From the NCBI GenBank assembly GCA_020439745.1, contig JAGQSC010000021.1, forward strand, positions 62,001 to 126,000: a stretch of 64,000 bases of DNA. The letters run 5' to 3'. Source of the DNA: Acidobacteriota bacterium. Its GTDB lineage: Bacteria; Acidobacteriota; Holophagae; Acanthopleuribacterales; Acanthopleuribacteraceae. Each line of letters begins with the position of its first letter. The first letter of the stretch is position 1. The notes under the pieces are model-generated. The model searched no databases and had not been told where the DNA came from. It saw nothing but the letters and a program-made list of their open reading frames with translations. Position numbers and translations under genes: made by a program. Positions 20,841 through 28,988 of the stretch are shown here, in pieces.

Positions 20841-23800
20841 CTAACTACAGCCTGTGGTGGCACCGCAGGTATCGCATTTGAGGCATGTCCCATTGCGTAC
20901 AAGCGTCAGATTTCCGCAGTCCGGGCAGGGATCGCCTTCATAGCCTTTGAGTCGCGCAATGCGTTGATGGGTCGTCGCTTGCGCTTCTCCCTTGGTTTGA
21001 ATTTCTACTTTCGTCATTTTCATGATTTCGGAGAATTCCACATCCGTTTCGTCCAGGTCATCGTCTTCTTCAACGGCAGGTGAGGGCGGTACATGGGCGT
21101 ACTCGTGACGTGAAAGATAGTTGAATCCCAGTTCTCGGAACACAAAGTCGATCACAGAATCACTGAACTTAATATTGTCGTGACCTACAACGGATCCGCT
21201 TGGTTCGAACTTGGTGAAAACAAATGCATCCATGTACTCTTCCAAGGGCACGCCGTACTGAAGGCCCAATGAAACCGCAATTGCGAAACAGTTCATGAGG
21301 CTGCGGAACGCAGCACCTTCACGATGCATGTCGAGGAAGATCTCTCCCAAGCGCCCGTCTGGGTATTCACCGGTCCGCAAATACAGTTTGTGGCCACCGA
21401 TCACTACCTTTTGGGTGTAGCCTGTGCGGCGATTGGGTAACAGGGCCCTACGCGCCTGAACCATCTGAGTCATGGCTTTGGCCGTTTGGACCACTTTGTC
21501 GTGGGTGGATGATTGCGCTTCATCAATGAGCAACTCATCGGTAATGACTGACAGCGGTTGGCTCAGCTTGGAACCATCACGATAAAGGGCGATGGCCTTG
21601 AGTGCCAGCTCCCATGCTTTGTAGTACACCTTGTTGATTTGCTCTACGGTCGCTTCGTTGGGCATATTAATGGTCTTGGATATGGCACCGGCCAAGAAGG
21701 GTTGTGCAGAAGCCATGATATTCAGATGACCTTCGTAGGCAATAAACCGTTTACCTCGTGTGCCGCACTTGTTGGCACAATCAAACACCGCATAGTGTTC
21801 TTCCTTGAGGAAGGGCGCGCCTTCGATGGTCATGGTTCCACAGCAGTAATCGTTGGCTGCTTGTATTTCTTCTTTGCTGAATCCTAAATGGGTCAACAAG
21901 TCGAATTGGTAATCGTCAATGTGTTCGCGTCCTATGCCCAACGTCTGTACCAGGAAGTCTTCACCCAGTGTGTAGCGATTGAACGAGAACTTGATGTCAA
22001 AGACAGAGCCCAAAGTGGATTCCAACTTGTCCAGTACGCTGGTGGTGAATCCCTTGGATCGTAACGATTCGTGGTTGATGTGGGGCGCACCTTTGAGCGT
22101 GCCCGTTCCGCGACAGTACTCCGTAATGCGCTGGATCTCGTCCTGGTTGTAGCCCAAGTTGCGCAAGGCAAGAGGCACCGATGAATTGATGATCTTGAAG
22201 TAACCGCCTCCGGCGAGTTTTTTGAACTTGACCAGTGCGAAATCAGGCTCAATACCAGTAGTATCGCAGTCCATCACCAGTCCAATGGTGCCCGTGGGTG
22301 CCAGGACCGTGGTTTGGGCATTGCGATATCCATGTTGTTCACCCATGGCCAAAGCGTCGTCCCAGGCGCGTTTGGCCGCATCCAACAGGTATCCGGGGCA
22401 ATGCGATGAGTCTATGCCCATGGGCTTCACTTCCAACTGCTCGTATTCGCGTTCGTCGGCGTTGTAGGCGGCCCGGCGGTGATTGCGAATGACGCGTAAC
22501 ATATGGTCCTTGTTGCGCTTGTAACCCGGAAACGCGCCCAACTCAGAACTCATTTCGGCGGACGTTTTGTAGCAAGTACCCGTGAGGATGGCCGTGATGG
22601 CACCCGTGATCGCGTTGGCTCGATGTGAATGATAGGGGATGCCACAAACCATTAACAGCGCGCCCAGGTTGGCGTAGCCCAGTCCAAGCGTTCTGAACTC
22701 GTAGGAACGTTCGGCAATCTCGCGACTGGGGAACTGTGCCATCAATACCGAAAGCTCAAGAACCACCGTCCAGGTACGACAGACATCGGTAAACGAAGTG
22801 ACATCAAATGTATTGGTGGCACTGTCGTAAAAGCGCAGTAGGTTGACCGAAGCAAGGTTACACGCCGTATCGTCCAGGAACATGTACTCGCTGCAGGGAT
22901 TAGATGCATTAATGCGGCCATCCTCTGGACAGGTGTGCCATTCATTAATGGTGGTATCGAATTGCAGACCTGGGTCCGCGCTACTCCAGGCCGCAAATCC
23001 GACTTTCTGCCATAAATCTTCGGCCAGAATTTCCTTAGTGACCTTACCGCTTGATCGTGCTGTTAACTGCCACTGGTCGCCATTTTGAACCGCGCGCATG
23101 AAGTCATTCGTCACGCGAACGCTGTTGTTTGAGTTCTGTCCGCTTACAGTGGCGTAGGCGTCAGATTCCCAGTTGACATCGTATTCGGGGACTTCAAAGT
23201 CCTTGTAGCCCTGTCTGGCAAGCTGCAACACGCGATGGATATAGGATTGCGGAACATGACTGTCAACTGCCTTACGGATACATGTTCGCAATGTGGCGTT
23301 ATCTGCAGGGTTATCGTGGAGTTCCCCTTGCTCGTCCCAGCATGCGCGAATAATGTCGCGTAGTGCCGATTTCGTGGCGCGGCTACCCGCGACCAATGCC
23401 GCGACCTTTTGCTCCTCCACCATTTTCCATTCAATAAAGGACTCAATGTCAGGGTGATCGATGTCCAAGGTCACCATCTTGGCTGCTCGACGCGTCGTAC
23501 CGCCTGATTTGATGGCACCCGCGGCCCGGTCCCCAATCTTCAAAAAACTCATCAGACCCGAGGATCGTCCACCTCCGGACAGCGGTTCACCGGCAGCGCG
23601 AATACGACTGAAATTGGAGCCCGTTCCAGATCCGTATTTGAATAAGCGCGCTTCACGGGTCCACAAATCCATAATGCCGCCTTCGTTGACCAAATCATCG
23701 GCGACACTTTGAATGAAACAAGCATGGGGCTGAGGGTGAGAATAGGCGTCCTTGGAACGCTGTACTTTGCCTGTCTGTGGATCCACATAATAGTGACCCT

Positions 23801-24314
23801 GAGCGGGTCCATTGATACCGTAAGCCCATTCCAGACCCGTGTTGAACCACTGCGGGGAGTTGGGTGCAACCATTTGGCGCGCCAACATGTGACTCAGCTC
23901 GTCGTAAAAGACCTGGGCATCCTCTTCCGAAGAAAAATAATCGTGTTTCCAACCCCAGTATGTCCAACACCCAGCAAGGCGATTGAATACCTGGCGGGCA
24001 TCGGTTTCCATGGTGTAACGGGCATCTTCGGGAATCTGCTCCAGCGATTTTTCATCCGGCTGACTGCGTTGCAACCAGCTGGGCACGTTCTTCTCTGATA
24101 CACGTTTCACACATGCGGGTACACCAGCCTTGCGGAAGTATTTCTGTGCCAATACATCCACGGCCACCTGAGACCAATCTGCAGGAACCGTGATGTTCTC
24201 TGCTGAGAAAACCAACGTCCCATCGGGATTTCTGATTTCGGATGTCTTCTTGACGAATTGGATGTCATGGTAGGGCGACTGACCGGCCACAGTAAAACGA
24301 CGAGCAAACTTCAT
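20841..24314 (-). CDS. nrdJ: Vitamin B12-dependent ribonucleotide reductase (class II)
   Basis: An adenosylcobalamin-dependent ribonucleotide reductase of about 1157 residues, full length for NrdJ. It reduces ribonucleotides with or without oxygen. The N-terminus [15 protein letters not shown] is typical. The R1 core shows [78 protein letters not shown] and [20 protein letters not shown]. The C-terminus has the [18 protein letters not shown] and CGATTGCS cysteines that re-reduce the active site or bind zinc. The start at 24314 is chosen by family N-terminus over the ATG 18 nt upstream. It is divergent from comEC, with an NrdR-type promoter and a folded leader. Confidence 0.96.
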
Positions 24315-24352
24315 ACTTACTCCCCCGAGCATCTTTATTTATGAATGAATTA

Positions 24353-24584: not shown

Positions 24585-26795
24585 ATGAAACGTTCAGAAA
24601 AAGTCTTTGATTCGCAGGCCGTTGCGTTTATTTTGGTCGCGCTTATGCCACTTGGCATCTTGTGGGGGATGGCATCAGATTGCCCCAATATTTTGCTAAG
24701 TCCATGGCTGGGATCATTACTTTGGTCGTTGGCCTCGGGACTCGTCTGGTGGCGCAAGCCTGTATCAGCTGCTTGCCTGACGGGTGTGTTCACCTTATGG
24801 GTAGCGCTCTCGATTGGAAACGGTTGCGCTGCTGCACTCGTTTCGCAATGGGATGACTCCTGGTTTGCGTTCCCGGTTGAATTGGATGGGGAAGTAGTGA
24901 CCCAACAGCCGACAAAGTTTGGGACTCGAATAACGCTGCGAGATGTCAAACCCACGAACCCAGCCTCTGATGGATTTCCCAGCCATGAGCTGGTGGTGTA
25001 TTTTCCGCCCGCTGACGGTGTGTTGCAACGTGGAGAACGCATTCGGGGTTGGGTGCGTCTGCACCGGCAACATTCAGTCAGAACGCTTCGCTTGCCATTC
25101 CATGAATTGAATGACCGGTTAAAGCCTAGAGTCTATGGAAGCGTCAAGGACTGGAGACTGATGTCTCATGGGGATCTAACAGCTCGCGATAATCAACGGC
25201 TCTCTCCGTTGGCCAATGAGCTTTATGAACTCTTCTTTAAAGGCCAACCGGCGAGAAACTGGCGTGACCTGTTACAGCCACTTGGGGTCGGGCATCTATT
25301 GGCGATCTCGGGCATGCATTGTCTGTTTGTGTATTTGATGGTGCGCGTGTGCTTGTTTTGGGTACGGCAACCGTACTTGAGAACAGTGGCAGTGGTCACT
25401 GTACTCATAAGTTTTGCCGGATGGATGGGATGGTCCGCGTCTGTGGTCCGCGCTACGATTATGTTGATTATCTGGCAGATCATGCCCATCACCAATCGGC
25501 CTCGGTCATGGCTGCGGGGATGGTCGGCGTTGATGATTGCGCTGTTGGTCCTGAACCCAACTGTCACCTTGCAACGAGGGTTCTGGTACACCTTTGCAGC
25601 AAGCTTGGGTATCGTCTTGGGACTCAGGCGTACACCCAAGTCGGCCTTTGATCACCCCTTGGATGGGACATTGCGGTGGTTCCTTCCCGTCTTGGCAGCT
25701 CAGGTCTTTGTCATGCCGATTGGCTTGATGTTTACCGGTCATGTGAATCTGATTTCGGCCATTTGGAATCTTGCGGGCATGGTGCTTTTGATCGCGTTGG
25801 TGGGTCTGGCTGTTCTGGCTGCTATCGCGCATGTGGTTCCTGCTATGGCGGGAGGTGTGAATACCCTTGTGGATGCCGTAGGCAGCACCTGTGAATGGCT
25901 ATCATCCATGGACTTGGCGTTCGGCTTGGTACGCCGCCCCCAGGTTCCCTGTTTGGTCGTGGTCTGTTTGCTTGTTTTTAGTGTTTGTCTCTTTTTGGGC
26001 AAGCGTGAGGTGCGTTGGTACTTATTGCTAGCCATGGCCACCGTCTGGTTGTTTCTGGGTAGACCGCAACTGAAACCGGGACTCTTGATGTTGGATGTGG
26101 GGCAAGGACAGGCTTGTGCGCTGGTAAGTGAGACGGGCGACACGTTATTGATCGATGGAGGAGGCAAACTACCCTGGGGCATCACCCTTGACACCGCGCT
26201 TAAACTGTCGGGAAGCGGTCGGTTAGTCGCGGCTGCGATCAGTCATCACAATGCGGATCACTACAATCTACTTGATGGTGTGGCAGCGGACGTTCCTTTG
26301 CTGGTCCCCCAAACACAAGCCTACCTTTTTGCCACGAATCCGTGGTTCGGCAGCCATTTACTTTACCCACTTCGGACTGGCGACATGCTGCCGATCGGGT
26401 CGTGGGAGGTGACCGTGGCCTGGCCTGACGCAGGAGAAGACGGCCCCAATAGTAACGAAACGGGTCTCGTGTTGTGTGCTCAAGATACGAAGATCACGGT
26501 CTGGATCATGGGCGATGCGGGTCACTACGTGGAGCAAAGGCTGGAAGGAACATGCGCAGACGTACTCGTGGTCGGTCATCACGGAAGCCGCTCAGCCAGT
26601 TCAGATGACTGGATTCGTCGTTTGAATCCAGAACTTTCCTTAATTTCATGTGGGCGCGAAAATCGCTTTGGGCATCCTCATTTGGAGGTGTTGACCAGTC
26701 TTGAGTCCACGGGTTCTCAAGTCTTGAACAGTGCGGTTTTGGGGTCCATTCATGTGGATTCCAATCTCATTGTGACTCCCGTTTGGCATCCCTAA
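24585..26795 (+). CDS. comEC: DNA internalization-related competence protein ComEC/Rec2
   Basis: A 736-residue membrane protein with the three expected parts. The N-terminus has two or three hydrophobic helices and a DUF4131-like OB region. The Competence domain (about 205-480) contains LQPLGVGHLLAISGMHCLF and many helices. The C-terminal metallo-beta-lactamase domain (about 500-736) contains MLDVGQGQACALV, DTLLIDGGGK, SHHNADHYNLLDG and VLVVGHHGSRSASS. ComEC carries single-stranded DNA across the inner membrane during natural transformation. The metal motif reads HHNADH where HPDADH is common, still with the key His/Asp/His. It diverges from nrdJ and is followed by the NrdD-like gene on the same strand. 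Confidence 0.93.
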   Translation: MKRSEKVFDSQAVAFILVALMPLGILWGMASDCPNILLSPWLGSLLWSLASGLVWWRKPVSAACLTGVFTLWVALSIGNGCAAALVSQWDDSWFAFPVELDGEVVTQQPTKFGTRITLRDVKPTNPASDGFPSHELVVYFPPADGVLQRGERIRGWVRLHRQHSVRTLRLPFHELNDRLKPRVYGSVKDWRLMSHGDLTARDNQRLSPLANELYELFFKGQPARNWRDLLQPLGVGHLLAISGMHCLFVYLMVRVCLFWVRQPYLRTVAVVTVLISFAGWMGWSASVVRATIMLIIWQIMPITNRPRSWLRGWSALMIALLVLNPTVTLQRGFWYTFAASLGIVLGLRRTPKSAFDHPLDGTLRWFLPVLAAQVFVMPIGLMFTGHVNLISAIWNLAGMVLLIALVGLAVLAAIAHVVPAMAGGVNTLVDAVGSTCEWLSSMDLAFGLVRRPQVPCLVVVCLLVFSVCLFLGKREVRWYLLLAMATVWLFLGRPQLKPGLLMLDVGQGQACALVSETGDTLLIDGGGKLPWGITLDTALKLSGSGRLVAAAISHHNADHYNLLDGVAADVPLLVPQTQAYLFATNPWFGSHLLYPLRTGDMLPIGSWEVTVAWPDAGEDGPNSNETGLVLCAQDTKITVWIMGDAGHYVEQRLEGTCADVLVVGHHGSRSASSDDWIRRLNPELSLISCGRENRFGHPHLEVLTSLESTGSQVLNSAVLGSIHVDSNLIVTPVWHP

Positions 26796-26855: not shown

Positions 26856-28988
26856 GTGGATCAAAACAAGGACAAGCAGCGGAATCGTCCCAAGTCAGCC
26901 GAGCATATCGACCGACTGAACGAGTTTCATCGCCACGCGTCCCTATTCGAAACGGCTCGTTCACCTGAGGCCAATATTGACTTTGAGCGTATGGCCATTC
27001 TCTTGAGCGAAGAATTTGATGTGCCCTACCACGAAGTACACGACGTGTTGCGTTATGTTCGAGGGCACGTTTCGGACCTGGGCTTCAGCAAACCGCCGGC
27101 AAGTTTGGTGTTGGCTTGGGTTTCCGGCCTTTTGCGACAGCGCGGGTATGATATTGCCGATCTTCCTGCAAATGCGGTTGAAGTACCGTTGGAACATGTG
27201 GAATTGAATATTTTCCACCCTACAGGTGCCTTTGCAGGTGCTGACCAGAATCCAGAAGCGACGTCACGGCGTTTGGCTGAACGCATCAAATCTCAGTTTG
27301 CCGTTCAACGCGTTTATCAGAGTGATGTCGTGGCGGCCCACGAACAAGGTCTGATCGAATTGATGGACCTGGGTTCCGTAGATCGACCCCATGACATGTT
27401 CATTACGCCAGATTATGTGAAGGCATACGGGCTTCCAGCTTCCAGTTGGTCGCCCAATGCAGGCCCCGCCAGACGCCCCGATGTTTTGTTGGCCCATCTG
27501 GTCCGATTTACCAGAGAACTCCAGAACCAGTTTGCAGGCGAAATTCACTGGGGCTTTTTTAACACCTTACTCATGCCATTTCTTGCTCCGTTAGACGATG
27601 ACGAAATGGAGCAGTTTTGTCAGCAACTTATCTTCGAGTTTGCTCAGTTGAATGCGGGTCGAGGGGGATCAGGTCCCCGTGTAACGCTGGATTTCGACTT
27701 CGATTTGCCACGGGGACTCGCGGAAGTCCACGCCGTGGGCGTTGGGGGCGGGAGAGATAGTTCGCCGCTTTCAGCCTACGAGAATGACCTGCAGCGTTTT
27801 AACCGCGTGTTTCTGCAGGTGCTATCCCGTGGAGACCGCCGCGGATCGCCGTTTCTGCGCCCTCATATCGTCTTTCACCTCAATCGCACAGATACAGGTT
27901 GGACAGAACTACATCACTTGCTCTATCGAACAGCCTTGCGCAACGGCAACCCATCCATTGCGGTCAGTGACCGCATGAGGAGTTTTGGCGCCATGGGACG
28001 CTTACCTCTTAACCAAAGCGATGTGATGGAGATGATGGTGAATCCTATTAAGATGCGAGGATTCTCGATTTCTGCGGTTGCCATTAATCTGGCATCGCTC
28101 TGGCTTCGCGATGACGGTACCAAATTCCAAGAGAACCTGACGAGCGCGCTTGAGTTGACGCTTTCAGCTCATCGACAGAAACGCATGTTCATATCCCGCT
28201 TGATGGCTTACGGGGCGCGTGGACCTTTGCGTTTTCTACGACATCGTTTTGATGATTTGCCGTTTCTTAAGTTAGATGATTCAACCCAGGCCGTTCATTT
28301 GGTGGGACTACTTGAAGCAGCACGCCTGATGATTGGTGCCCACCACGCTGCTCCTGATGCGGTGGTTCGGGCCGCCTCGCAAATTGTGCACGACGTCCAG
28401 TGTGCCATACGGGAACTTAACCAGTTACACAAGTTGAATATGATTCTGGCCGAGTTGGGCGACGATGAAGTCACGTACCGGATGGCCAAAATGGACATGA
28501 AACGCTATGGCCAAAAGTACAGTCCCTTCTTGCTGCGTTCTGCGCGACAGGCAGAGCCCTTTTACAGTGCCGGAACGGCTTTGTTTGCCTGTGATGAAAT
28601 GGATTGGCGTTTGCGTTTGCAGTTGGAAGGCAAAATGCACAGCGATATTGAAGGCAACTGTGAGATTACCTTTTTCACGCAAGACCGCGACTTGGAACAG
28701 CCAGAGTTACCCCAACTACACCACATGTTTGTGACCAGCGGTGCTCAGCGGATGAGGGTAGCTCCCGATTATCGTCTATGTCTGAACTGTTACCACTTGT
28801 TTGTAGATCGGAGTTGTCAGGATCCCTGCCCCAACTGCAGAGGTGGTCTGGTCACAGATTACGGATTTGCCCAAAGCGGCTACGCCCCGGTATCCACCTT
28901 TTGCCGGGGCAAACGTGTGGAATGGGAGTTGCGGACACGCTGGGATGATCGACCTGGCGCCGCACAACAGGTTCTGCCTCTGGACTGA
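26856..28988 (+). CDS. Anaerobic ribonucleotide reductase (NrdD)-like protein, apparently without active-site cysteines
   Basis: A 710-residue protein that follows the NrdD fold order. ELQNQFAGEIHWGFFNTLLM, PFLAPLDDDE and QQLIFEFAQLNAGRGGSGPR correspond to the NrdD segments around QNEWAGAQAF, LAPFV and FNLNVPSR. FNRVFLQVLSRGDRRGSPF and FSISAVAINLASL match FNRAF..EGDARG and GVVTINLPR. The C-terminal zinc site is kept (C642, C645, C658, C661), as is SGYAPV (G675), at the glycyl-radical position. Missing are the YCxGW segment (here near 178-186) and the CCRL thiyl cysteine (here GAMGRL, 378-383). It is probably not a working reductase; a regulatory or nucleotide-binding role is speculation. No activase gene (nrdG) is nearby. 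The start is a GTG with a weak SD. Confidence 0.72.
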   Translation: MDQNKDKQRNRPKSAEHIDRLNEFHRHASLFETARSPEANIDFERMAILLSEEFDVPYHEVHDVLRYVRGHVSDLGFSKPPASLVLAWVSGLLRQRGYDIADLPANAVEVPLEHVELNIFHPTGAFAGADQNPEATSRRLAERIKSQFAVQRVYQSDVVAAHEQGLIELMDLGSVDRPHDMFITPDYVKAYGLPASSWSPNAGPARRPDVLLAHLVRFTRELQNQFAGEIHWGFFNTLLMPFLAPLDDDEMEQFCQQLIFEFAQLNAGRGGSGPRVTLDFDFDLPRGLAEVHAVGVGGGRDSSPLSAYENDLQRFNRVFLQVLSRGDRRGSPFLRPHIVFHLNRTDTGWTELHHLLYRTALRNGNPSIAVSDRMRSFGAMGRLPLNQSDVMEMMVNPIKMRGFSISAVAINLASLWLRDDGTKFQENLTSALELTLSAHRQKRMFISRLMAYGARGPLRFLRHRFDDLPFLKLDDSTQAVHLVGLLEAARLMIGAHHAAPDAVVRAASQIVHDVQCAIRELNQLHKLNMILAELGDDEVTYRMAKMDMKRYGQKYSPFLLRSARQAEPFYSAGTALFACDEMDWRLRLQLEGKMHSDIEGNCEITFFTQDRDLEQPELPQLHHMFVTSGAQRMRVAPDYRLCLNCYHLFVDRSCQDPCPNCRGGLVTDYGFAQSGYAPVSTFCRGKRVEWELRTRWDDRPGAAQQVLPLD

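Follow-up and report, generated by a model that had tools for sequence, protein, structure and literature searches.

The locus and its NrdD-like product

The window (the whole stretch of 64,000 nucleotides analysed here) carries an open reading frame whose limits are those described in an earlier note made from the sequence alone (Table 1). It is the sole NRDD gene of this 5.1-Mb genome. Its product matches the Pfam family NRDD over the full length of the profile (8.6e-50, residues 130-695 against profile positions 6-561 of 562), a score that chance could not produce, in line with the note's view of the whole chain as that of a class III ribonucleotide reductase (RNR), NrdD, although some of the motifs listed there are approximate (QNPEATS, not QNxxAG). 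Against the NCBIfam model of NrdD (TIGR02487), the protein scores 107.7 bits, under the curated cut-off of 326.35, and four full-length relatives are also below this value (117-221 bits). A search of the PDB with the single sequence gave no match, whereas a profile search did. The note had proposed structure prediction as a check, and the AF2 model of the protein (pLDDT 77.8, pTM 0.77) has class III RNRs as its closest solved structures (Foldseek 1e-22, Z 28-30). A homologue from Blastocatellia gave a better model (pLDDT 82.0), with Z up to 35 against NrdD.

The class II reductase NrdJ, encoded close by as the note had pointed out, is a real dNTP source of the genome.

Table 1. Features of the NrdD-like gene and its neighbours, with positions in the window.
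Feature	Position	Strand	Remarks
nrdJ, class II RNR	20841..24332	-	NF005736, 1982 bits, over cut-off; context
comEC	24585..26795	+	TIGR00361, 143 bits; upstream, context only
NrdD-like gene, product almost certainly a pseudoenzyme	26856..28988	+	710 aa, GTG start
N-terminal region, ATP-cone place in relatives	26973..27230	+	eroded; VRxSD...FDxxRI motif lost (alignment)
NxN flap region (covers the substrate in NrdD)	27219..27263	+	reads GAFAGADQNPE, no NxN
DRPHDMFITPDYVKA	27381..27425	+	retains the DRP motif; Asp (aa 180) where NrdD has the reductive beta-A cysteine
Effector/dimer helix, Q253, Q256, R269	27612..27662	+	retained; T. maritima Q207, Q210, R221
Finger-loop region MRSFGAMGRLPLNQSDV	27975..28025	+	without Cys; model pLDDT <50 at 376-385
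Position corresponding to the start of the phosphate-binding helix (TPAE)	28446..28469	+	degenerate
C-terminal zinc site CLNC...CPNC	28779..28838	+	C642, C645, C658, C661; metal binding predicted
Former glycyl-radical loop FAQSGYAPVST	28863..28895	+	Gly present here, not conserved family-wide

A family kept in many Acidobacteriota

Searches of Acidobacteriota genomes returned 11 further homologues at 27-32% identity. A scan of genome contigs with the single protein found no match; the same kind of scan with an alignment found 31 loci, of which 4 proved to be ordinary NrdDs and 4 were later assigned to a related group with all catalytic residues, hereafter the active sister. The named loci amount to 27, almost all from Acidobacteriota, and include the four of the active sister. 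All seven genomes sampled from the window's own family have a homologue, and in an even sample across the phylum Acidobacteriota, 18 of 396 genomes have a match of the grade seen in what we call the pseudo family. A search for viral relatives found none. Except in the Holophagae family f2, no genome checked has an NRDD gene besides the pseudo gene. The degenerate reductase of the window is thus not a one-off, and the same dead version is kept in many Acidobacteriota.

To compare residues, we aligned 37 pseudo homologues (from the window's own family, Blastocatellia, and Chloracidobacterium) with 23 canonical NrdDs and mapped the positions onto the numbering of the Thermotoga maritima NrdD taken from PMC4493059.

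Loss of the catalytic parts

The beta-A cysteine (YC.GW) is found in 23/23 canonical NrdDs and in 4/4 proteins of the active sister, and in none of the 37 pseudo homologues. The pair of cysteines of the finger loop (MGCR/MCCR/SCCR; CCR) is equally complete in the canonical proteins (23/23) and equally absent from the pseudo family (0/37). Five more members beyond these 37 also lack both cysteine sites. In the window protein, the two places read DRPHDMFITPD and approximately GAMGRL, with no cysteine, as the earlier note had observed; its question of whether the cysteines are absent from all orthologues is answered in the affirmative for the members aligned. The parts that hold the substrate have fared no better. 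His114, which contacts phosphate in T. maritima, is kept in 4 of the 37, the base-stacking aromatic residue 227 in none, and Pro498 of the TPAE motif in only one, against all 23 canonical proteins. The NxN substrate flap described for NrdD in PMC11226230 is missing from every pseudo sequence that could be read at that place. More generally, 92 columns are conserved in the canonical proteins and the active sister; 23 of them are lost in the pseudo family (conserved in <20% of the members), the catalytic positions among them, and 25 are kept (>=90%).

At the glycyl-radical place, the note reported a Gly-Tyr pair, and the window protein does have S-G-Y at residues 674-676, but the glycine is one column off the usual register and is not a conserved feature: a glycine stands beside the tyrosine in 4/7 members of the window's family, the window protein included, and is absent in the other 3. 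A radical glycine in register occurs in 3/37 pseudo homologues, the others having N, D, S, Q, or other residues. The activase is also missing. No NrdG passes the cut-off in any of 12 genomes with a pseudo gene, among them that of the window, so that the missing nrdG noted next to the gene holds genome-wide, and no NrdG2 passes it in any of 23, as against 7/7 genomes with a true NrdD. With the catalytic parts and NrdG gone, ribonucleotide reduction by the known mechanism is not possible. The earlier reading of the protein as a pseudoenzyme is therefore strongly supported for the gene and for its family, and we regard it as almost certain that the product descends from a class III RNR and is now a conserved pseudoenzyme.

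Odd-looking radical enzymes do exist (PMC4493059, PMC11528403), and the T. maritima NrdD itself has an isoleucine at the tip of its finger loop. Together with the Gly-Tyr of the window protein, this could suggest that the protein still works as a radical enzyme, with unusual residues. Yet T. maritima NrdD keeps Cys125 and SCCR, and the aminoacyl radical enzymes keep their activase, whereas the pseudo family has no NrdG and no conserved cysteine besides those of the zinc site, and even the glycine is inconstant in the window's own family. We thus consider a working radical enzyme very unlikely. We also looked for the signature of an aminoacyl radical enzyme, i.e. Ala, Ser, or Thr in place of the radical glycine along with an activase: the residue at the site varies, and no activase of the NrdG type passes the cut-off. 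The survey of amino-acid changes at radical sites in PMC11528403 found only glycine in class III RNRs, which would be expected if, as we suspect, the pseudo sequences score under the cut-off for that family.

The loss of catalytic residues and the erosion of the ATP-cone in the window's family would also be expected of a decaying pseudogene. This is hardly credible given the presence of the gene in every sampled genome of that family, the intact reading frames of nearly all members, and the dN/dS of 0.046-0.152 between close pairs of pseudo genes, which indicates that the protein is under purifying selection.

What the pseudo family retains

The four cysteines of the C-terminal zinc site are invariant (37/37 pseudo homologues and 5/5 of the short forms described below); the site is kept and is predicted to bind metal. 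The effector/dimer helix is also well preserved, with Q207 in 37/37, Q210 in 31/37 (Glu in the six others), and R221 in 35/37 of the pseudo homologues. Q253, Q256, and R269 of the window protein are the equivalents of T. maritima Q207, Q210 (beside the effector Mg2+), and R221. A recognisable ATP-cone (Pfam) is present in 28/38 members, the window protein not being one of them.

The retention of the effector helix throughout the family, and of the ATP-cone in most members, makes a role in nucleotide sensing plausible. Against it, the ATP-cone motif is gone from the window's own family, and in the short forms of f2 the effector helix is missing as well. The helix may be kept for dimer packing only. 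Even the canonical NrdDs of Acidobacteriota do not conserve Gln161 of the T. maritima effector pocket, at a place where the alignment is uncertain.

The barrel could instead have acquired a new, non-radical chemistry. It is fully folded in the models and strongly conserved, and two polar residues, D186 and H525, are conserved only in the pseudo clade. However, conserved residues unique to this clade are few, nearly all others being inherited from the active sister; we found no clustering of new polar residues, and hence nothing that points to a new active site. Moreover, the substrate flap, the phosphate motifs, and the base-stacking residue of the old site are gone. We consider a new chemistry in the old barrel unlikely.

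The active sister and the origin of the loss

Four loci (L043, L045, L054, and L069) make up the active sister. Its proteins share with the pseudo family the DRP motif, the ARGGQ loop, the CxxC zinc site, and the form of the ATP-cone, and they are its nearest relatives in the tree, but unlike it they keep all catalytic residues, in the motifs DRPYCSG, [EQ]CCRLSF, and TGYF; DRPYCSG is not readable in L069, where the frame is broken. The protein of L054, from Candidatus Schekmanbacteria, passes the NrdD cut-off with 424 bits and has an NrdG2 (188 bits) 2 kb away. As L069 also has an NrdG nearby, two of the four loci have nrdG close to the reductase gene; none was found within the DNA around L043 and L045. 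In L069 (L069:4399-6359), the gene is split into two overlapping frames, either by an assembly error or by a real frameshift. The QCCR of the sister recalls the NrdD3 of PMC9669993; this is a lead only, and from the motif the two are possibly related.

The tree separates the canonical proteins from the sister, the pseudo family, and the short forms with full support. In one tree, the pseudo family and the short forms fall together on one side of a branch, whose support is only 26, and long-branch attraction may be what joins the short forms to the window's family. For these two reasons, catalysis may have been lost in one event or in two.

Genomic context and the short dead relatives

All 27 genomes tested encode NrdR, and all 27 encode a class I or class II RNR. 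Hence, neither the supply of dNTPs nor the function of NrdR depends on the pseudo gene, which in these genomes is ruled out both as a replacement of NrdR and as the only RNR of its genome.

From the adjacent comEC, the earlier note had suggested a role in DNA uptake. This gene ends 60 bases upstream of the pseudo gene, on the same strand, as might be expected of a component working with ComEC. Its conservation was to be checked, and the linkage turned out to be confined to one genus: apart from the window, only one genus mate has comEC beside the pseudo gene, there with a methyltransferase gene between the two, and comEC is absent from the other homologue neighbourhoods that we examined. We therefore regard a DNA-uptake component as highly improbable. 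The neighbours of the pseudo gene vary (thiD, carB, gltX, comEC), thiD and carB recurring in several Blastocatellia, and across the neighbourhoods examined we found no conserved neighbour hinting at a partner. In eight loci (L038, L042, L056, L059, L062, L063, L064, and L068), thiD, which encodes a phosphomethylpyrimidine kinase, is directly upstream; it overlaps the pseudo gene by 4 bases in L064 and L068, and carB is downstream in several of the eight.

The family f2 of Holophagae has a short dead relative of 587-610 residues, without effector helix and finger loop, in genomes with a canonical nrdD-nrdG elsewhere. In all five loci (L088-L092), its gene follows directly after dnaK-dnaJ, its start overlapping dnaJ, and grpE precedes dnaK-dnaJ wherever the surrounding DNA reaches that far. 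The next gene after the dead relative in these loci encodes an outer-membrane beta-barrel protein. The constant position behind dnaK-dnaJ is the strongest hint that the pseudo protein could be a structural or protein-quality partner, for instance one tied to the DnaK system, without any nucleotide role, and the zinc knuckle, the sole cysteine feature kept throughout, would fit this too. However, the DnaK context is limited to f2, the genes found elsewhere being the varied ones listed above, and outside f2 the residues of the effector helix are kept. We are accordingly doubtful of such a role, and give it little weight.

A split class III RNR was seen in the f2 genome G124 (L095:5686-5890): nrdD ends just past the zinc site, and the glycyl-radical loop is encoded by a short open reading frame of its own (65 aa in L095, ATG start), which is followed by nrdG. 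Split nrdD genes also occur in L070, L071, and L072, which are Patescibacteria/Falkowbacteria loci.

A putative nucleotide sensor

Since the dead version is under strong selection in many Acidobacteriota, it has probably gained another job. What is retained of NrdD is its barrel, together with the dimer/effector helix and the zinc knuckle. In the reading that we favour, the protein would be dimeric and its former specificity site would still accept a nucleotide; most relatives would also bind ATP or dATP at the ATP-cone. The nucleotide state would then be passed on to a partner, the protein being a sensor or regulator and not an enzyme. Taken as a whole, the proposal of a conserved pseudo-RNR working as a dimeric nucleotide-binding sensor or regulator, whose function we infer from retained residues, has in our estimation an even chance of being right.

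Some known systems resemble the pseudo family in part. NrdD (T4 1H7A, T. maritima 4COJ/4U3E, P. copri 8P2S) shares with it the barrel (about 460-570 aligned residues, Z 28-35), the four-cysteine zinc site, the residues of the effector/dimer helix, and, in most members, the ATP-cone; unlike NrdD, the pseudo family lacks the beta-A and finger-loop cysteines, a conserved radical glycine, the NxN flap, TPAE, and NrdG. NrdR likewise combines an ATP-cone and a zinc ribbon in one protein, but it has no RNR barrel. HCMV UL45, an inactive herpesvirus homologue of the RNR large subunit, is another dead RNR catalytic subunit with a different role (PMC5469499). It differs in being class I and viral, and in its lineage and role.

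We found no bacterial family of RNR pseudoenzymes described in the open-licence literature that we searched, where the dead RNR subunits are viral. Among 1,375 class III sequences analysed in PMC9669993, the beta-A cysteine is conserved in 92.6%, and the part of that work used here does not discuss dead members. In a table of PMC12816986, three Chloracidobacterium species have the entry 'NrdD-like paralog (Class III), Present (no NrdG)'. This paralog very probably belongs to the same pseudo family, as the genomes G096, G123, and G165 carry the pseudo gene as their only NRDD gene. The entry is one table row in a species description and contains in itself no analysis of residues, family, or function. 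A cellular family of RNR pseudoenzymes that discarded the active site, kept the allosteric half, and is now devoted to nucleotide sensing in Acidobacteriota is what the retained residues tentatively suggest, at slightly less than even chances.

For genome annotation, the NRDD domain of these genes is a warning, as it can be misread as a capacity for anaerobic DNA synthesis where this is impossible by that route. The pseudo family would also make it possible to tell apart what the NrdD zinc knuckle does for structure and what it does for catalysis. Finally, if the chemistry has been lost and the regulatory half kept, nucleotide sensing could be studied in these proteins apart from catalysis.
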